From Candidatus Aminicenantes bacterium (GTDB lineage: Bacteria; Acidobacteriota; Aminicenantia; UBA2199), in contig DSBM01000141.1 of NCBI GenBank assembly GCA_011049425.1, positions 1-62,968 of the forward strand: a stretch of DNA of 62,968 nucleotides. The letters are read 5' to 3'. The notes beneath the pieces were generated by a model. The model saw nothing but the letters and a program-made list of their open reading frames with translations. It was not told the origin of the DNA and ran no database searches. Position 1 is the first letter of the stretch; every line of letters starts with the position of its first letter. The position numbers and the translations under genes are program-made. Shown here piece after piece: positions 39,576 to 46,194 of the stretch.

Positions 39576-42030
39576 TATTGAGTATGCGTCCGGGAATAAA
39601 GATCACTTTGCGGAAAGGACCTTCACCCACATGGCGGTGGATGGTTGCATCACGCAACGCGTAAGTCATTACCGTGTCCTGATCGGCGTTGTTCGGCACC
39701 CGGATGCTGCCGCGGAATTTGCCTTTTACCTGCACGCCGATCTCAACTTCCTGATCAAGCAGGAAACGCGGATCATGCTGCGGCCAGGAAGCGTCCAGGA
39801 CCAGGCCTGGAAATCCCGCTTGTTCCCACAGCTCACACGCGAAATGGGGAGCAAAAGGAGTCAATAATACCAGTAGATCGCGCACGGTTTCGCTGGCCAC
39901 CCCCCGGAGTTGAAGAGACAGGGCGTTGGTAAACTCCATGAAAGCGGAAACAGCGGTATTGAACTTGAAGCTCTCCAGGCGGTCGGTAACGTCGTGAATC
40001 ATGCGGTGACGCAGACGGGCTACGGCGTCACTCTCCGTTTCGCGGCGCTGGTCGGAAGCAATCCAGCCGGTGACCAGTTCCCAGGTGCGTTTCAGGAAAC
40101 GGTATACTCCGATGATGCCCCGATCCGACCATTCGCTGTCCTGTTCCGGCGGGCCGATAAAGAGTTCATACATGCGCAGGGTATCCGTACCGAATTCAGC
40201 CATGATCTCATCGGGACTGACCACATTGCCCTTGGACTTGGACATCTTTTCAATGCGCCCGGTTTTTTCGCTGCGTCGCGTCACCATGCCGATGCAGAAG
40301 AGGCGCTTATAGGGCTCTTCCCATTGAACCTCACCGATATCAAAGAGGAATTTCTGGTAAAAACGCGCGTATAGCAAGTGCAGAATGGCGTGTTCAATGC
40401 CACCCACGTATTGATCAACCGGCATCCAGCGGGCTTCCAGGTCGGGATCGACCAGGGCTTTGTTGTAGTGGGGGCTGATGTAGCGCAAATGATACCAGCA
40501 TGAACCCGCCCATTGGGGCATGGTATTGGTTTCCCGCTTGGCTGGACCGCCGCAATGCGGGCAGGCCACATTGACCCAGTCATCAATGCCGGCCAGGGGG
40601 GATTCTCCGGTGCCTGTCGGTTCATAGTGCTCCACGTCGGGCAAGAGTACGGGAAGGTCTTTTTCCGGAACCGGTACCTCTCCGCATTGGGGACAGATGA
40701 TGATGGGAATGGGTTCCCCCCAATAGCGTTGCCGAGAAAACACCCAATCCCGCAGTTTGTAGTTCACCCTGGATTCTCCAAGCCCGCGGCTTGTCAGTTC
40801 ATCCGTAATGAGACGACGCCCTTTATGGCTGGAAACGCCGTCAAACCTGCCGCTGTTGACCATGACGCCCTCACCTTCATATGCGACCGCCAGTGAATCG
40901 TCTTGGTTTTTTACCGTGTCAGGAGATGAAATCACTTCGCGGATGGGCAGGTTGAAGCGGGTCGCGAATTCAAAATCCCTCTGGTCGTGAGCAGGGACCG
41001 CCATGATGGCGCCGGTACCGTACGACATGAGCACGTAATCTGAAATCCATACCGGAATTTCTCTTCCGTTGACCGGGTTGAGCGCATACGCGCCGGTAAA
41101 AACCCCGGTTTTTTCCTTATCCAGGGCGCTGCGCTGCAATTCCGACTTACGCCGGGCCTGTTCAAGATATTCTCTTATCCCGGTTTTCTGCGCTTCTGAA
41201 GCAATGCGCATCACCAGTGGATGCTCGGGGGCCAGAACCATGTAGGTGGCGCCGAACAATGTATCCGCTCGAGTGGTAAAAACGCGTACATCGTGAGCAT
41301 CTTTGGATTCCGCCTCATGAATGCGAAACACCACTTCGGTGCCGTCACTGCGGCCGATCCAGTTGCGTTGCAGGATTTTAACCCGTTCCGGCCAATCCAG
41401 GTCATCCAGATCCTTAAGCAGCCGATCTGCATAGCGGGTAATGCGCAACATCCATTGCATGAGATCTCTCTGGACAACCGGACTGCCGCATCGTTCACAA
41501 CCGCCATTGATCACTTCTTCATTGGCAAGACCGGTTTTGCAGCTGTCACACCAGTTAATGGGTACCATCTGGCGATAGGCGAGGCCGGCCTTGAACATTT
41601 TTACAAAAATCCACTGTGTCCAACGGTAATACCCGGGATCCGAAGTGTTGATCTCCCGTTCCCAATCGTACATGCACCCGAAGCGCTGGAGTTGTTGCTT
41701 GAATTTTTTGATGTTGCTTTTTACGCTGACGCGGGGGTTGATTTTTTTCTTAATGGCGTCGTTTTCCGCGGGGAGCCCAAATGCATCCCAACCCATGGGA
41801 TGCAACACATTGTAGCCGCGAATGGACATGTATCGACTCCACACATCGCTCAGTACATAGCCGCGTGGGTGTCCGACATGCAGGCCGCTGCCGCTGGCGT
41901 ACGGGAACATGTCCATACAGAAATACTTGTGTTCAGACTTGGACGTGTCGCAGCGATGAAGATTTTTTTCCGTCCAGATGCGTTGCCACTTTTCTTCATA
42001 CCTGGCGGGGAGAAAGTCCGTTTGAATCAT
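39565..42030 (-). CDS. leuS: Leucyl-tRNA synthetase
   Basis: 821-residue class I aminoacyl-tRNA synthetase. The HIGH-type motif is in YASGSGLHVGHPRGYVLSDV, the CP1 editing domain includes FTTRADTLFGATYMVLAPEHP and GTGAIMAVPAHDQRDFEFA, and KMSKS is in KMSKSKGNVVSPDEI. Zinc-type CxxC pairs occur in NWCDSCKTGLANEEVINGGCERCG. The ATG at 42030 has AGGAG at 8 nt; the longer form would overlap the TTGGAG-16-TATAAT promoter at 42085-42112. It charges tRNA-Leu. Length and motif set are normal. Confidence 0.97.
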   Translation of the reverse strand: MIQTDFLPARYEEKWQRIWTEKNLHRCDTSKSEHKYFCMDMFPYASGSGLHVGHPRGYVLSDVWSRYMSIRGYNVLHPMGWDAFGLPAENDAIKKKINPRVSVKSNIKKFKQQLQRFGCMYDWEREINTSDPGYYRWTQWIFVKMFKAGLAYRQMVPINWCDSCKTGLANEEVINGGCERCGSPVVQRDLMQWMLRITRYADRLLKDLDDLDWPERVKILQRNWIGRSDGTEVVFRIHEAESKDAHDVRVFTTRADTLFGATYMVLAPEHPLVMRIASEAQKTGIREYLEQARRKSELQRSALDKEKTGVFTGAYALNPVNGREIPVWISDYVLMSYGTGAIMAVPAHDQRDFEFATRFNLPIREVISSPDTVKNQDDSLAVAYEGEGVMVNSGRFDGVSSHKGRRLITDELTSRGLGESRVNYKLRDWVFSRQRYWGEPIPIIICPQCGEVPVPEKDLPVLLPDVEHYEPTGTGESPLAGIDDWVNVACPHCGGPAKRETNTMPQWAGSCWYHLRYISPHYNKALVDPDLEARWMPVDQYVGGIEHAILHLLYARFYQKFLFDIGEVQWEEPYKRLFCIGMVTRRSEKTGRIEKMSKSKGNVVSPDEIMAEFGTDTLRMYELFIGPPEQDSEWSDRGIIGVYRFLKRTWELVTGWIASDQRRETESDAVARLRHRMIHDVTDRLESFKFNTAVSAFMEFTNALSLQLRGVASETVRDLLVLLTPFAPHFACELWEQAGFPGLVLDASWPQHDPRFLLDQEVEIGVQVKGKFRGSIRVPNNADQDTVMTYALRDATIHRHVGEGPFRKVIFIPGRILNIIP

Positions 42031-42084
42031 CTGCATAACTCCTGCGCGCCCGCGCTGAACCCGGCAAGGCGGGCGGGAAATTAA

Positions 42085-42112
42085 ATTATAGCATACAAAG
42101 GCAGCGCTCCAA
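42085..42112 (-). promoter_or_regulatory. Promoter of leuS
   Basis: Minus strand TTGGAG (42107-42112), 16 bp, TATAAT (42085-42090), with TG before the -10. The GC-rich leader of about 48 nt could form a hairpin (CGCCCGC with GCGGGCG); no leucine T-box was recognised. Confidence 0.6.
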
Positions 42113-42135
42113 AAGCCTGTGACAAAAAATTGTGG

Positions 42136-42164
42136 TTGACAATGCAAAACAGCTGTGCTAATTC
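42136..42164 (+). promoter_or_regulatory. Promoter of the twin-HTH MerR gene
   Basis: Consensus TTGACA (42136-42141), 17 bp, TAATTC (42159-42164). MerR-type regulators often act at promoters with 19-20 bp spacers; this one has a normal 17 bp, so classical MerR untwisting is not expected here. Confidence 0.6.
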
Positions 42165-42168
42165 TCTG

Positions 42169-42201
42169 TACGTGCACGTTACGATAACTATACGTTCACG
42201 T
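42169..42201 (+). promoter_or_regulatory. Probable operator: direct repeats TACGTKCACGT
   Basis: TACGTGCACGT (42169-42179) and TACGTTCACGT (42191-42201), 22 bp apart start to start, that is two helical turns, just after the predicted transcription start of the MerR-type gene. The first contains the palindrome ACGTGCACGT. Likely an autoregulatory site. Confidence 0.5.
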
Positions 42202-42212
42202 AGAGGTATGAA

Positions 42213-42932
42213 ATGACACCCAAAAATGTAATTTTCATTGACGAGTTGATCGGTATGATCGGTGTAGAAGAAACCCGGGTCCGGGAGTGGATGGAAAGCG
42301 GACTCCTGCATCCCATTGGCCAATCCGAAGACGGCCAAGCGGTTTTTTCAATGTTGCAGGTGGAACGTGCACGAAAAATCAGTCGTTTGGCGACTATGGG
42401 GTACAACCAGGCCGAGATCCGGCGCATTGTCCGCAAAGTCGGTATTCCTGGAGAAAACCCCAAACCCGATTCAATCAAAAACCACCAGCCTTTAACCGTG
42501 GGCGCTCTGGCCGATCGCGTCGGTGTGAGTCCCCGCACCATCAAACACTGGGAGGAAAAAGGCATTATTGAACCGGATATGCGCAGCGAGGGGGGCTTCA
42601 GGCTCTACTCCGAATCTTTTGTTTATCTGTGCCAGTTGGTCCGCGACCTGCAGCTGTTCGGGTACAGCCTGGATGAAATCAAAAATGTTTCCGATATGTT
42701 CCGCATGTTCATGACACTCCAGGCATCATTGGATGCACTTCCATGGGAGTCGGTAAATGAGCACCTCAGCGCCATGCTGCGGGAGATTTCCAACCTGGAC
42801 GAACGCATGGCCATGTTGAAAACGGGTATACGCCGTTGGGAAGGGCTTTTGGGTAAAAAAAGCCGGGAGATCACAACCTTGCAGCGTCGCAATCACAAAC
42901 GCAAAAAAGCCGCAAAAGGAGAAAGCCATTGA
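42213..42932 (+). CDS. MerR-family regulator with two MerR-like HTH domains
   Basis: 239 residues. A first MerR-like domain (about 1-75: FIDELIGMIGVEETRVREWMESGLLHP, then RLATMGYNQAEIRRIVRKVG) is followed by a second complete one (about 90-165: PLTVGALADRVGVSPRTIKHWEEKGIIEP, GGFRLYSES, LQLFGYSLDEIKNV). The C-terminal region is helical and ends in a basic tail, with no metal-binding cysteines. Two DNA-binding domains in tandem are unusual for MerR proteins, which normally have one per subunit and dimerise. GAGG is upstream. The gene overlaps the hydrolase-like gene by 4 bp, indicating a regulatory pair. The signal is unknown. Confidence 0.85.
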   Translation: MTPKNVIFIDELIGMIGVEETRVREWMESGLLHPIGQSEDGQAVFSMLQVERARKISRLATMGYNQAEIRRIVRKVGIPGENPKPDSIKNHQPLTVGALADRVGVSPRTIKHWEEKGIIEPDMRSEGGFRLYSESFVYLCQLVRDLQLFGYSLDEIKNVSDMFRMFMTLQASLDALPWESVNEHLSAMLREISNLDERMAMLKTGIRRWEGLLGKKSREITTLQRRNHKRKKAAKGESH

Positions 42933-44146
42933 ACCCGGCAAGAGAATCCCACCTGATGTTCGCAGCGCTCAGGCATTGCAAAAACGAAATCGAAATACCG
43001 GAACTGGATATCAGGGTCCGCCGCTTCAAGATGGAATCAAAAAACGGTTATCTACAGCATGGGGGTAAGCCTTGCTGTCCGATTCATGGTTATGAATTTC
43101 CGGTATCGGCTTCACGTTTTCATCACGAAACCAACCAACTTGCGGACGCCTTGATTCCCGAGAACCTGTCGTTTGCGTATTTCATGGTGACAAGCCGCCC
43201 GATTCCTGCCAAGCCCGCCAGAGGAGTAATCCTGCTGTTTCATGGTCTGAACGAAAAAAGTTGGCAGAAATACCTGCCCTGGGCGCTTCGCCTCCATCGT
43301 GGAACCGGAAAGCCGGTGATTTTGTTTCCTCTGGCATTTCACATGGATCGCGCCCCCGCAGAGTGGATAGAACCGCGTTCCATGCAGGTTCTCAGCCGAG
43401 AGCGAGCCGCACGCCACCCCGCCATCCATGCCCATTCACTGGCCAATGCGGCAATCAGTGAGCGCCTGGAGGCCGATCCCAGACGTTTCGCCTGGTCGGG
43501 GCTGCAATCGCTATACGACCTATTCGACCTTTGCCGCCGCATCCGCGCCGGGCTTCATCCCGGGATCCTTCCCAATCCACGCATCGATCTCTTCGCTTAT
43601 TCAATCGGCGCGTTCCTTGCCTTGATCGCCATCATGACCAATCCGGGGAATATCTATTCCACGTCCCGCCTGTTTTGTTTCTGCGGCGGCTGCGTCCTGA
43701 ACCGCACGAACCCCACCTCACGCTACATAATGGACAGCGAGGCCACTATCGCGTTGTACGCAATGTATGTCGAGTACCTGGAAACGGAAATTCGAACCAA
43801 CCCCCGTCTGGCCCACTTCATCTCCTCGATGCATCCCGAGGGGATGTTTTTTCGTTCACTGTTGGATTTAAACCAAATGGCCGAGTTCAGAGATCTACGC
43901 CTGCATCAACTGCGAAGCCGCATCCGCGCGCTGGTACTGAAGCGGGATCTTGTCATACCTCCCCTTGAAGTGATCTATACCCTTCAAGGACGTCATCGCA
44001 AGATCCCCATCCGTATCCGCCAAACCGATTTTCCTTATCCATACACCCATGAAAACCCATTTCCATTACAATCATCCCACTCCGGGCAAGTGACTCGAAT
44101 GATGGACCGCACAATGGCGGGCGCATCCCGGTTCCTTTCCCACTGA
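42929..44146 (+). CDS. Alpha/beta-hydrolase-like protein of unknown function
   Basis: 405 residues. GVILLFHGLNEKSWQKYLPWALRLHRGTGKPVILFPLAFH (about 92-131) looks like the oxyanion-hole region of an alpha/beta hydrolase, and LFAYSIGAFLALIAI (about 218-232) supplies a nucleophile elbow (A-Y-S-I-G). Candidate Asp and His residues follow but cannot be assigned. A DUF6051-like family is possible. Translation starts at TTG 42929, overlapping the MerR stop codon, with GGAG in front. The coupling suggests the regulator controls it directly, perhaps with its substrate as signal; this is inference. Confidence 0.72.
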   Translation: MNPARESHLMFAALRHCKNEIEIPELDIRVRRFKMESKNGYLQHGGKPCCPIHGYEFPVSASRFHHETNQLADALIPENLSFAYFMVTSRPIPAKPARGVILLFHGLNEKSWQKYLPWALRLHRGTGKPVILFPLAFHMDRAPAEWIEPRSMQVLSRERAARHPAIHAHSLANAAISERLEADPRRFAWSGLQSLYDLFDLCRRIRAGLHPGILPNPRIDLFAYSIGAFLALIAIMTNPGNIYSTSRLFCFCGGCVLNRTNPTSRYIMDSEATIALYAMYVEYLETEIRTNPRLAHFISSMHPEGMFFRSLLDLNQMAEFRDLRLHQLRSRIRALVLKRDLVIPPLEVIYTLQGRHRKIPIRIRQTDFPYPYTHENPFPLQSSHSGQVTRMMDRTMAGASRFLSH

Positions 44147-44181
44147 TACTGAATGATGCCGCCCATTCCCTGTTTGAATCG

Positions 44182-44889
44182 TTAATCGCGTGCAAACAAA
44201 GATACCAACGCAAAAGAGGCCCTTTCCCTCAAGTGGTGTTGGTATAGATGGGACATGGGCGTGCTTTCCGGATTGATCTCCACCATGACGGCACCGGATT
44301 CCCGGGCAAGTTGCGGAAATCCCGCCGCGGGCCAGACCACTCCCGAAGTGCCCACGGAAACAAACAAGTCACACCGTTTTACCGCGCCTGCGGCCGTTTC
44401 CATCAGTCCCGTATCCATGGTATCACCAAACCAGGTGATGTCCGGGCGCATCCATGCAAGGCAAGAGGGACATTGGCGATGGGCGAATTCCGCCTGTTCA
44501 AGGTCTTTTTGAACGCCGTGTTGTGGGCAACGCATCCGCCACAAGCTGCCGTGTATCTCCAATACATTGCGGCTGCCCGCGCGCTGGTGCATGCCGTCGA
44601 TGTTCTGGGTAATCAACGTCACCCGGGGATGGATGGTTTCCAGATCAGCCAGGGCTTTGTGTCCGGCATGGGGAATACAATCCAGCACGGCTTTGCGACG
44701 TTTCTCATGAAAATCCAGTACTGCTTCGGGCTTGTTTTCAAACGCTTCCTGGCAAGCGTACTCCTGCCAGCGATACTGGTTCCAAATGCCGCCACTGCCG
44801 CGATAGGTGGGTACACCGCTCTCAGCCGACATGCCGGCGCCGGTAAACACCACGATTGCCCGGGCTTTGCGCCAGGAAGTAAGGCTCAT
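44182..44889 (-). CDS. cobB: NAD-dependent protein deacylase, CobB-like sirtuin
   Basis: 235 residues. VVFTGAGMSAESGVPTYRG (NAD-binding), TLITQNIDGMHQRAG, catalytic His in VLEIHGSLWRMRC, and SVGTSGVVWPAAGF all match bacterial class III sirtuins such as E. coli CobB. The zinc pairs read CPQH and CPSC; CobB itself has CSQS in the first pair. The Tyr-x-x-Arg acyl-lysine selectivity motif reads H-x-x-R (FHEKRRK), so desuccinylase preference may be altered. The start overlaps the PilZ stop (ATGA). It deacylates lysines using NAD. Confidence 0.9.
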   Translation of the reverse strand: MSLTSWRKARAIVVFTGAGMSAESGVPTYRGSGGIWNQYRWQEYACQEAFENKPEAVLDFHEKRRKAVLDCIPHAGHKALADLETIHPRVTLITQNIDGMHQRAGSRNVLEIHGSLWRMRCPQHGVQKDLEQAEFAHRQCPSCLAWMRPDITWFGDTMDTGLMETAAGAVKRCDLFVSVGTSGVVWPAAGFPQLARESGAVMVEINPESTPMSHLYQHHLRERASFALVSLFARD

Positions 44890-45206
44890 TTGCTTTCCAA
44901 GATGCGTTCAAGGTATTTCTGGTAAAGCTGAGGCGGATCGATCACGGCCAATCCGGTTTCTCTCAAATGGGCGCCCTTTAATTGGATCGGGTCATGCACC
45001 CAGCGAACAGAAGCTTTCAGGGTTACCGGCTTGCCGTCGATATCCAGGCGCACCATTACCTCCCGGTATGTGGGCAGGGTTTTTTCGCAACGCAGACAGA
45101 TTCCCCGGGGGGAGATGTCTACGACCACGGCGGGATATTCAACCCCATCCATGACAACCACAACGTTCTTCAGGCCATACAGGCGTTTTTCCTTGCGGGG
45201 ATTCAT
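44886..45206 (-). CDS. PilZ-domain cyclic di-GMP receptor
   Basis: 106 residues forming one PilZ domain: RKEKR (RxxxR at residues 4-8) and VVVDISPRGICLRC (D-x-S-x-x-G) are the cyclic di-GMP-binding motifs, both intact. The ATG at 45206 has GGAGAA upstream; longer forms would run into the promoter at 45238-45265. It is a single-domain adaptor, so it probably binds another protein when loaded. Coupling with the CobB-like gene by a 4-bp overlap suggests coexpression. Confidence 0.85.
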   Translation of the reverse strand: MNPRKEKRLYGLKNVVVVMDGVEYPAVVVDISPRGICLRCEKTLPTYREVMVRLDIDGKPVTLKASVRWVHDPIQLKGAHLRETGLAVIDPPQLYQKYLERILESK

Positions 45207-45237
45207 TTGTTCTCCATGAAGCAACTCTTCCAAATGC

Positions 45238-45265
45238 ATTCTAAGCAAATAAAGAAAAAATTCAA
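45238..45265 (-). promoter_or_regulatory. Promoter of the PilZ-cobB operon
   Basis: Minus strand TTGAAT (45260-45265), 16 bp, TAGAAT (45238-45243). It is divergent from the promoter at 45292-45320. Confidence 0.55.
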
Positions 45266-45291
45266 ACCTCTCGCCAATATGGCGGCGCCAG

Positions 45292-45320
45292 TTGAAACAG
45301 TGTCTGAAGTACTTTATATT
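45292..45320 (+). promoter_or_regulatory. Promoter of the cytidylate-kinase-like gene
   Basis: TTGAAA (45292-45297), 17 bp, TATATT (45315-45320). The ATG at 45373 lies about 45 nt after the predicted start. Confidence 0.6.
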
Positions 45321-45372
45321 GTTATTAAGAGATGCAGGGGAGTTTTTTCAGATCTTCCCGGAAGGAGGCAAG

Positions 45373-46194
45373 ATGGCCGTTGTGACACTTTCACGCAGCC
45401 TGGGCAGCTTGGGAACGCAAATGGCGGAAATCCTGCAGCAACGGATGGATTTGCCCCGCCTGGACAAATCTTCCCTGGAAGGCATTTTTTCCGACTACGG
45501 TGAGGCATTGGAAAACCTGGAGCGCTATGATGAAAAGCGCCCCTCATTCTGGGACAATTTTTCCTCGCAAAAAGACCGCTACCTGCATTTTCTGAAAACC
45601 GCCATATTCGAGTTTGCCGGTACCGGGAACGCCTTGATACTGGGCCGCGGGGGACAGATCATCCTGGCGGGGATCCCCGGTGTAATCAAGGTACAAGTAA
45701 CCGCACCGATCACGGTACGCCGTGATCGCCTGATGAAGCGTTACGGCGTAGAAGAAAACCAGGCCATGGCCATGCTCCGCCAGAGTGACCGTGAGCGCTC
45801 CGGATTCCACCGATTCTTTTTTAATGTGGACTGGGATTCACCGGATCTGCACGATCTGGTGATCAACACCCGGGAAGTGGAAGCGGAAACCGCGGTGGCC
45901 ATGATCGGCAGTCTGGTGGATTCTCCCCCTTTCCGGGAACAGGCCCAACGGCAACAGGAGTTGATCCGCGACTTGAGCTTGGGGCACCGGGCAGCGACCG
46001 CCATTTTGTATCATGCCCATATTCCCATTCAGTTTCTGGAAGCGGAAGCCCGCAACGGTCGTGTGAGCCTGAGGGGGTCAACGGTCATTCGCGCGGATAT
46101 TGACCGCGCCACCCGCGCGGCTGCGGAAGTAAAGGGAGTTCAACAAGTTGACAACCACATCCAGTTCGTACCCATGACTTTTTCCATGGGTTAA
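45373..46194 (+). CDS. Cytidylate kinase-like protein with C-terminal BON-like domain
   Basis: 273 residues. The N-terminal about 200 match the cytidylate kinase-like family (PF13189 type): VVTLSRSLGSLGTQMAEIL replaces a classic P-loop, then LILGRGGQIILAGIPGVIKVQVTAP and RRDRLMKRYGV. The last about 70 residues (NGRVSLRGSTVIRADIDRATRAAAEVKGVQQVDNHIQFV) look like a BON domain, normally a membrane- or ligand-binding unit of periplasmic proteins, here without a signal peptide. The ATG has GGAGG. The substrate is unknown; the BON part may sense a ligand. Confidence 0.8.
   Translation: MAVVTLSRSLGSLGTQMAEILQQRMDLPRLDKSSLEGIFSDYGEALENLERYDEKRPSFWDNFSSQKDRYLHFLKTAIFEFAGTGNALILGRGGQIILAGIPGVIKVQVTAPITVRRDRLMKRYGVEENQAMAMLRQSDRERSGFHRFFFNVDWDSPDLHDLVINTREVEAETAVAMIGSLVDSPPFREQAQRQQELIRDLSLGHRAATAILYHAHIPIQFLEAEARNGRVSLRGSTVIRADIDRATRAAAEVKGVQQVDNHIQFVPMTFSMG

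Follow-up and report, generated by a model that had tools for sequence, protein, structure and literature searches.

Twin-MerR regulator genes linked to a DUF6051 hydrolase or a B12-binding radical SAM enzyme: a probable autoregulated repressor cassette

Introduction

The classical mechanism of MerR-type regulators is an untwisting of the promoter (PMC9909328). An over-long spacer of 19 to 20 bp is a trait of MerR activators and not of all MerR members. A second MerR-like domain within one chain is found in FtsR (Rv1828), which, according to PMC6683498, is a dimer on an inverted repeat, binds DNA with its N-terminal domain and has its regulatory domain at the C terminus; it activates ftsZ and has other targets. 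By its model name, the fused-homodimer HspR (NCBIfam NF047377) represents a known MerR-type repressor made of two fused copies. The DUF6051 proteins were classed as hydrolases with a double cap that have retained the triad; in PMC11878206 they are mainly from Bacteroidetes, have PadR, LytTR and FadD as neighbors, and membrane cleavage was guessed as their activity.

Here, we analyzed a gene pair in a 62,968-nucleotide stretch of DNA (the window) from Candidatus Aminicenantes bacterium, in which, in contrast to these described contexts, a DUF6051 gene stands behind the gene of a twin-MerR regulator. An earlier note on this DNA had proposed that the regulator, a direct-repeat operator in its leader and the adjoining hydrolase gene form a metabolite-sensing module. 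A limited literature search found no earlier description of such a regulator-enzyme module.

Results

The regulator contains two unequal MerR domains

The regulator ORF (42213-42932, plus strand, ATG start) encodes 239 amino acids, with two helix-turn-helix domains, HTH1 (about 42228-42443) and HTH2 (about 42492-42692), followed by a long coil (about 42744-42920), all on the plus strand. When the halves were scanned separately against Pfam, residues 1-88 matched MerR_1 with an E-value of 2.6e-10 (40.7 bits) and the remainder with an E-value of 3.8e-14 (53 bits); with a cut-off of 21.6 bits, PF13411 was exceeded in both halves, which assigns both to the winged HTH domains of the MerR superfamily. 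The AlphaFold2 model (pLDDT 88.1, pTM 0.61) comprised two MerR folds, a flexible link at residues 82-89 modeled with low confidence, and a 59-residue helix. In structure comparisons, both halves aligned with solved MerR folds. HTH1 was nearest to GlnR, TipAL and TnrA (Z 11.6-11.0), with 74 residues superimposed at 2.1 Å on the GlnR-DNA complex 4r4e (Z 11.6), and HTH2 together with the coil was nearest to CadR (Z 10.4) and CueR, the NCBIfam model of CueR matching with an E-value of 8.9e-17. HTH2 with the coil also resembled the C-terminal domain of Rv1828 (5ydc, residues 126-245), which matched regulator residues 92-200 with a Z of 8.2 over 104 residues at 5.2 Å; thus, a second MerR-like domain per chain has a precedent.

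Among 59 non-redundant homologues, the mean column entropy was 2.07 bits for HTH1 versus 0.83 bits for HTH2. Arg108, Lys111, Trp113 and Arg130 of HTH2 were invariant and Arg124 almost so, residues that we take to be DNA contacts from established knowledge of MerR proteins, whereas the matching stretch of HTH1 was variable. The earlier claim of two complete MerR-like DNA-binding domains thus holds for the fold of both halves but not for the conserved DNA-contact positions, which are missing from the first. Judged from the alignment, HTH1 keeps the MerR fold without these positions and looks repurposed.

The regulator falls outside the known families that it resembles. The NCBIfam FtsR model matched it in two stretches, but the score of 38.5 bits was far from the equivalog cut-off of 150 (NF050798); in contrast to FtsR, the conserved domain is here the C-terminal one, and the known target is the regulator's own operon. 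The CueR, ZntR, CadR and MerR equivalogs gave 54 to 61 bits versus cut-offs of 147 to 168 (CueR, 61.4 versus 147.4 bits), and the regulator differs from these proteins by the extra MerR fold in front, by a mostly 17-bp promoter spacer and by its single cysteine. The score with the fused-homodimer HspR model was 34.6 bits (cut-off 300), and the two halves are unequal here. The single cysteine, Cys140, was kept in 88% of the 59 non-redundant sequences; cysteine sensing was rejected because the residue is replaced in about 12% of them. Neither a ligand nor a ligand-binding domain was found for the regulator, which leaves the proposed metabolite sensing without support.

The downstream gene encodes a DUF6051 alpha/beta-hydrolase

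The second ORF (42929-44146, plus strand, 405 amino acids) begins with a TTG codon that overlaps the stop codon of the regulator gene in TTGA, as the earlier note had read it. The product was identified as a member of DUF6051 (Pfam PF19519, E 5.5e-116) with 388.4 bits versus a gathering cut-off of 27, the match covering profile positions 14-405 of 406. Its structure model (pLDDT 86.8, pTM 0.89) was nearest to esterases and peptidase-type hydrolases, with the best Z of 20.0 to esterase folds, and gave a Z of 8 or more with all 1000 chains compared, as expected for an alpha/beta-hydrolase fold. The predicted fold agrees with the hydrolase-like nature of this protein as read in the earlier note. 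Ser225 (43601-43603), Asp340 (43946-43948) and His374 (44048-44050), all encoded on the plus strand, were invariant in 21 sequences; from residue order and motif, they are predicted to form the catalytic triad.

Beyond the pair and convergent to it, the minus strand codes at 44182-45248 for a member of the Sir2 family and for a protein with a PilZ domain. The product of 45292-46194 is a fusion of a cytidylate-kinase-like domain (Pfam PF13189) with a BON domain (PF04972).

Each operator box at this locus is an inverted pair of half-sites

The regulator promoter has a perfect -35 hexamer, TTGACA (42136-42141, plus strand), and a weak -10 element within 42157-42164; a consensus promoter scan of the window did not list it. 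Two boxes on the plus strand follow, box 1 (TACGTGCACGT, 42169-42179) and box 2 (TACGTTCACGT, 42191-42201), the second of which abuts the ribosome-binding site AGAGG (42202-42206, plus strand). The two TACGTKCACGT repeats that the earlier note had seen 22 bp apart are indeed located at 42169 and 42191. They are the only exact matches in the window, and none of 100 shuffles contained two matches (mean 0.00). Exact matches to TACGTNCACGTWR in the whole genome (2,623,831 bases) were likewise restricted to these two boxes, and with up to one mismatch there were 22 matches versus 38 for a reversed control pattern.

Each box is a MerR-type dyad, box 1 for instance containing two inverted ACGT half-sites, and the boxes look like direct repeats because the unit is near-palindromic. 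The term direct-repeat operator thus says too little about the inner structure of the boxes, and their spacing varies among the relatives below. No match to Rfam, for a riboswitch or another known RNA in the leader, was obtained in 41000-46000. An RNA hairpin between the boxes was set aside since the likely transcription start would fall inside box 1.

The operator is conserved in the leaders of related regulators

We compared 73 non-redundant regulator leaders. TACG/CGTA words occurred 3.08 times per last 75 bases, in comparison to 0.66 ± 0.10 (sd) in shuffles. Box 1 was present in 71 of the 73 leaders, box 2 in 67 and both in 65. In relatives, box 1 (consensus CcTATACGTAtACGT) lies in the -10/start region and mostly follows the -10 element, and box 2 (consensus TATACGTAaAGG) runs into the ribosome-binding site, often with one half-site only; the arrangement of four half-sites seen at this locus is thus not generally conserved. 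The outer TACG words were 25 to 44 bp apart, with clusters at 28-30, 34-35 and 40-41 bp, and a fixed box-to-box geometry was rejected on account of this variation. These clusters (loci L054-L133) step by about 6 bp, which is no helical turn; the dyad unit also repeats every 6 bp.

TTGACA, or a hexamer with one mismatch to it, together with a -10-like hexamer was recognized in 68 of the 73 leaders. The best-fitting spacer was 17 bp in 47 of these 68 promoters, 19 bp in six and 20 bp in one, so the over-long spacer of activators does not surround the operator in most of them. Some leaders (e.g. L128 and L133) place the dyad between the -35 and -10 elements.

The regulator gene is linked to one of two enzyme genes

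A close homologue of the regulator (E < 1e-50) was present in 20 of 59 relatives searched, and the next gene in 19 readable cases encoded a B12-binding radical SAM enzyme (16, including one with a broken frame in G014) or a DUF6051 protein (3). For a larger comparison, a named collection was scanned with two HTH2 peptide patterns, which favors close kin; this gave 80 regulator loci (best of 99 relatives), a set that overlaps the former one. The loci carried the names Aminicenantes, Acidobacteria, Ignavibacteria, Neomarinimicrobia, Spirochaetes, Bacteroidetes, Chlorobiota and Clostridiales, and most related contigs were named Candidatus Aminicenantes or Acidobacteria. Homologues with one HTH only had been named in advance as evidence against the twin-domain reading; the twin architecture was instead conserved, with encoded regulators of 225-285 amino acids at 79 of the 80 loci and the remaining one (L113) cut by the contig end.

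DUF6051, the radical SAM enzyme or both came next in 76 of the 79 loci with readable downstream DNA, and start codons overlapping the regulator gene were frequent among the conserved loci of several phyla. The neighborhood search suggested in the earlier note, for which a missing linkage would have counted against the module, thus retained the coupling of the regulator to an enzyme, but with a shift in the partner: radical SAM genes were found at 55 of the 79 loci versus 22 for DUF6051 and are therefore the usual partner. One locus, L131, with the order regulator, DUF6051, radical SAM, was counted in both. The radical SAM partners contain a B12-binding and a Radical_SAM domain, and their nearest NCBIfam models were BchE (183 bits, cut-off 481.35) and HpnJ (170 bits, cut-off 577.6), values that were obtained with one representative and were similar for a second. 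At L098, a GDSL-type hydrolase (PF13472) is next. At the near-identical Neomarinimicrobia loci L075 and L079, only the first radical SAM codons are left after the regulator, followed by another reading frame (membrane-protein-like by eye), with regulator and operator intact.

The window's class comprised 142 genomes, 55 of which contained the regulator in one copy each, and all four DUF6051 genes present in this class adjoined it. A radical SAM orthologue is absent from the genome of the window, where the best E-value was 1.2e-41 as compared to 1.6e-285 for a true member. In a tree of the 80 regulators, calculated with a quick method, the partner label must have changed a minimum of four times, and well-supported branches require two or more of these changes. 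Three Aminicenantes DUF6051 types clustered with radical SAM types; the branch of this locus' regulator is long and its placement unsure.

At L055, L060, L063, L065, L069, L078 and L126, all in one clade, the radical SAM gene is followed by genes for an ABC-type ATPase and a permease-like protein (both named by eye), about 1.5-3.6 kb past the regulator; recurring at few loci only, they were rejected as a part of the module. The divergent leuS was not among the recurring neighbors clustered across the loci. A role in anti-phage defense was rejected: PADLOC matched HTH2 to mad1 and the radical SAM enzyme to PDC-M51A, both at superfamily level only, and gave no match for the two hydrolases.

The operator is also found at an unlinked radical SAM gene

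An exact search for TACGTNNACGTATA in 41 genomes yielded 24 distinct places, of which 15 were the regulators' own leaders, one preceded an unlinked radical SAM gene and eight were elsewhere. Half of these eight were in one 10-Mb genome; five of the eight, one of them from this genome, were read, and three of the five were located inside ORFs. One exact dyad stands before an FMN-binding-like lipoprotein gene (L185, G153:C106) and another near a lipocalin-like gene (L189, G159:C282), both assigned by eye; these may be further targets or chance. In addition, a slightly extended dyad was sought in 18 relatives, with one mismatch allowed. Seven of them gave matches. In six, the leader of the genome's own regulator was the only place; the remaining one, the 10-Mb genome, had ten, all on contigs other than that of the regulator.

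In G158, the dyad is located just upstream of the radical SAM orthologue, with the regulator and DUF6051 genes located on a different contig (L128). The promoters of the two loci closely resemble each other, with TTGACT, the dyad TATACGTATACGTATA and TATATT, and the radical SAM promoter has one dyad without a clear box 2. The operator therefore links both enzymes to one regulon in that genome. Among the 18 DUF6051-type genomes outside the window's class, a radical SAM orthologue (E ≤ 1e-80) was absent from 17, the exception being G158.

The class of a Melioribacteraceae genome comprised 197 genomes, 34 of which contained DUF6051. The regulator adjoined DUF6051 at six of 30 loci read in this class and was absent at E ≤ 1e-30 from the other 28 of the 34 DUF6051 genomes. 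At the 24 regulator-less DUF6051 loci read, no dyad occurred in the 250 bases upstream, and no neighbor of DUF6051 outside the module recurred in the majority of them. G191 of the same class has the regulator without DUF6051, with the radical SAM gene next to it.

Discussion

The gene pair is probably a repressor cassette that is self-contained and autoregulated. The twin-MerR protein would bind the ACGT-NN-ACGT dyads as a dimer, by means of the conserved MerR domain in its second half; with box 1 on the -10/start region and box 2 abutting the ribosome-binding site, it would keep RNA polymerase away from the promoter of its own gene. Upon a signal, which the degenerate first MerR domain may sense, the promoter would be freed and the downstream enzyme made. 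The enzyme so controlled would be the DUF6051 serine hydrolase at this locus and the B12-binding radical SAM enzyme in most relatives, possibly within one regulon. The mostly 17-bp spacer and the placement of the boxes favor repression over the classical MerR untwisting; the weak -10 element of this locus, the spacers of 19 bp (6/68) and 20 bp (1/68) and the eight of 24 exact dyads away from the module are at odds with it.

An activator that untwists the promoter upon a signal would agree with the nearness of HTH2 and the coil to CueR and CadR, with activation being common among MerR proteins (PMC9909328) and with leaders such as L128 and L133, in which the dyad lies between the promoter elements. 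It would, however, hardly be expected to have spacers of mostly 17 bp (47/68) instead of 19-20 bp, nor a box 1 that mostly comes after the -10 element and a box 2 at the ribosome-binding site, and we consider it quite improbable. The regulator could also be imagined as a dimer that clamps both boxes with both MerR domains, HTH2 on one and HTH1 on the other. This is unlikely in view of the variable contact positions of HTH1, a box spacing of 25 to 44 bp and the single dyad, without a clear box 2, at the unlinked radical SAM promoter, even though HTH1 retains the MerR fold (Z 11.6 to 4r4e) and a Pfam score above the cut-off, and two boxes occur in 65 of 73 leaders. The earlier suggestion that one protein contacts both repeats accordingly does not appear to be the simplest reading, with HTH1 lacking the positions conserved in HTH2.

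Finally, the pair might be an ordinary local gene order with the hydrolase as a passenger and without functional coupling, as could be suggested by one class in which 28 of the 34 genomes with DUF6051 lack the regulator. One of the two enzymes is nevertheless kept behind the regulator at 76 of 79 loci from several phyla, start codons often overlap and the operator recurs at an unlinked enzyme gene in one genome, which makes mere gene order very hard to credit.

For the probable repressor cassette, we would guess by analogy that the controlled enzymes modify or turn over a lipid or another ester, because of the hydrolase partners, the distant kinship of the radical SAM enzymes to BchE and HpnJ below the family cut-offs, and the guess published for DUF6051 (PMC11878206). 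In a more speculative and rather improbable extension, one MerR domain would have turned sensor within the same chain and the enzymes would act in a two-enzyme pathway, in which an undescribed modification introduced by the B12-dependent radical SAM enzyme would be removed or processed by DUF6051, with lineages keeping either enzyme under the same switch.

The module is real and conserved and consists of two genes; it is a variation on MerR regulation as already known, with a regulon that is new, and not a new kind of system. It brings DUF6051 and a radical SAM subfamily akin to BchE and HpnJ together under a common switch whose operator is defined, and it is a clear example of a second MerR domain in which the fold is kept but the conserved DNA-contact residues are not. 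Finding what releases the repressor would reveal the substrate class.
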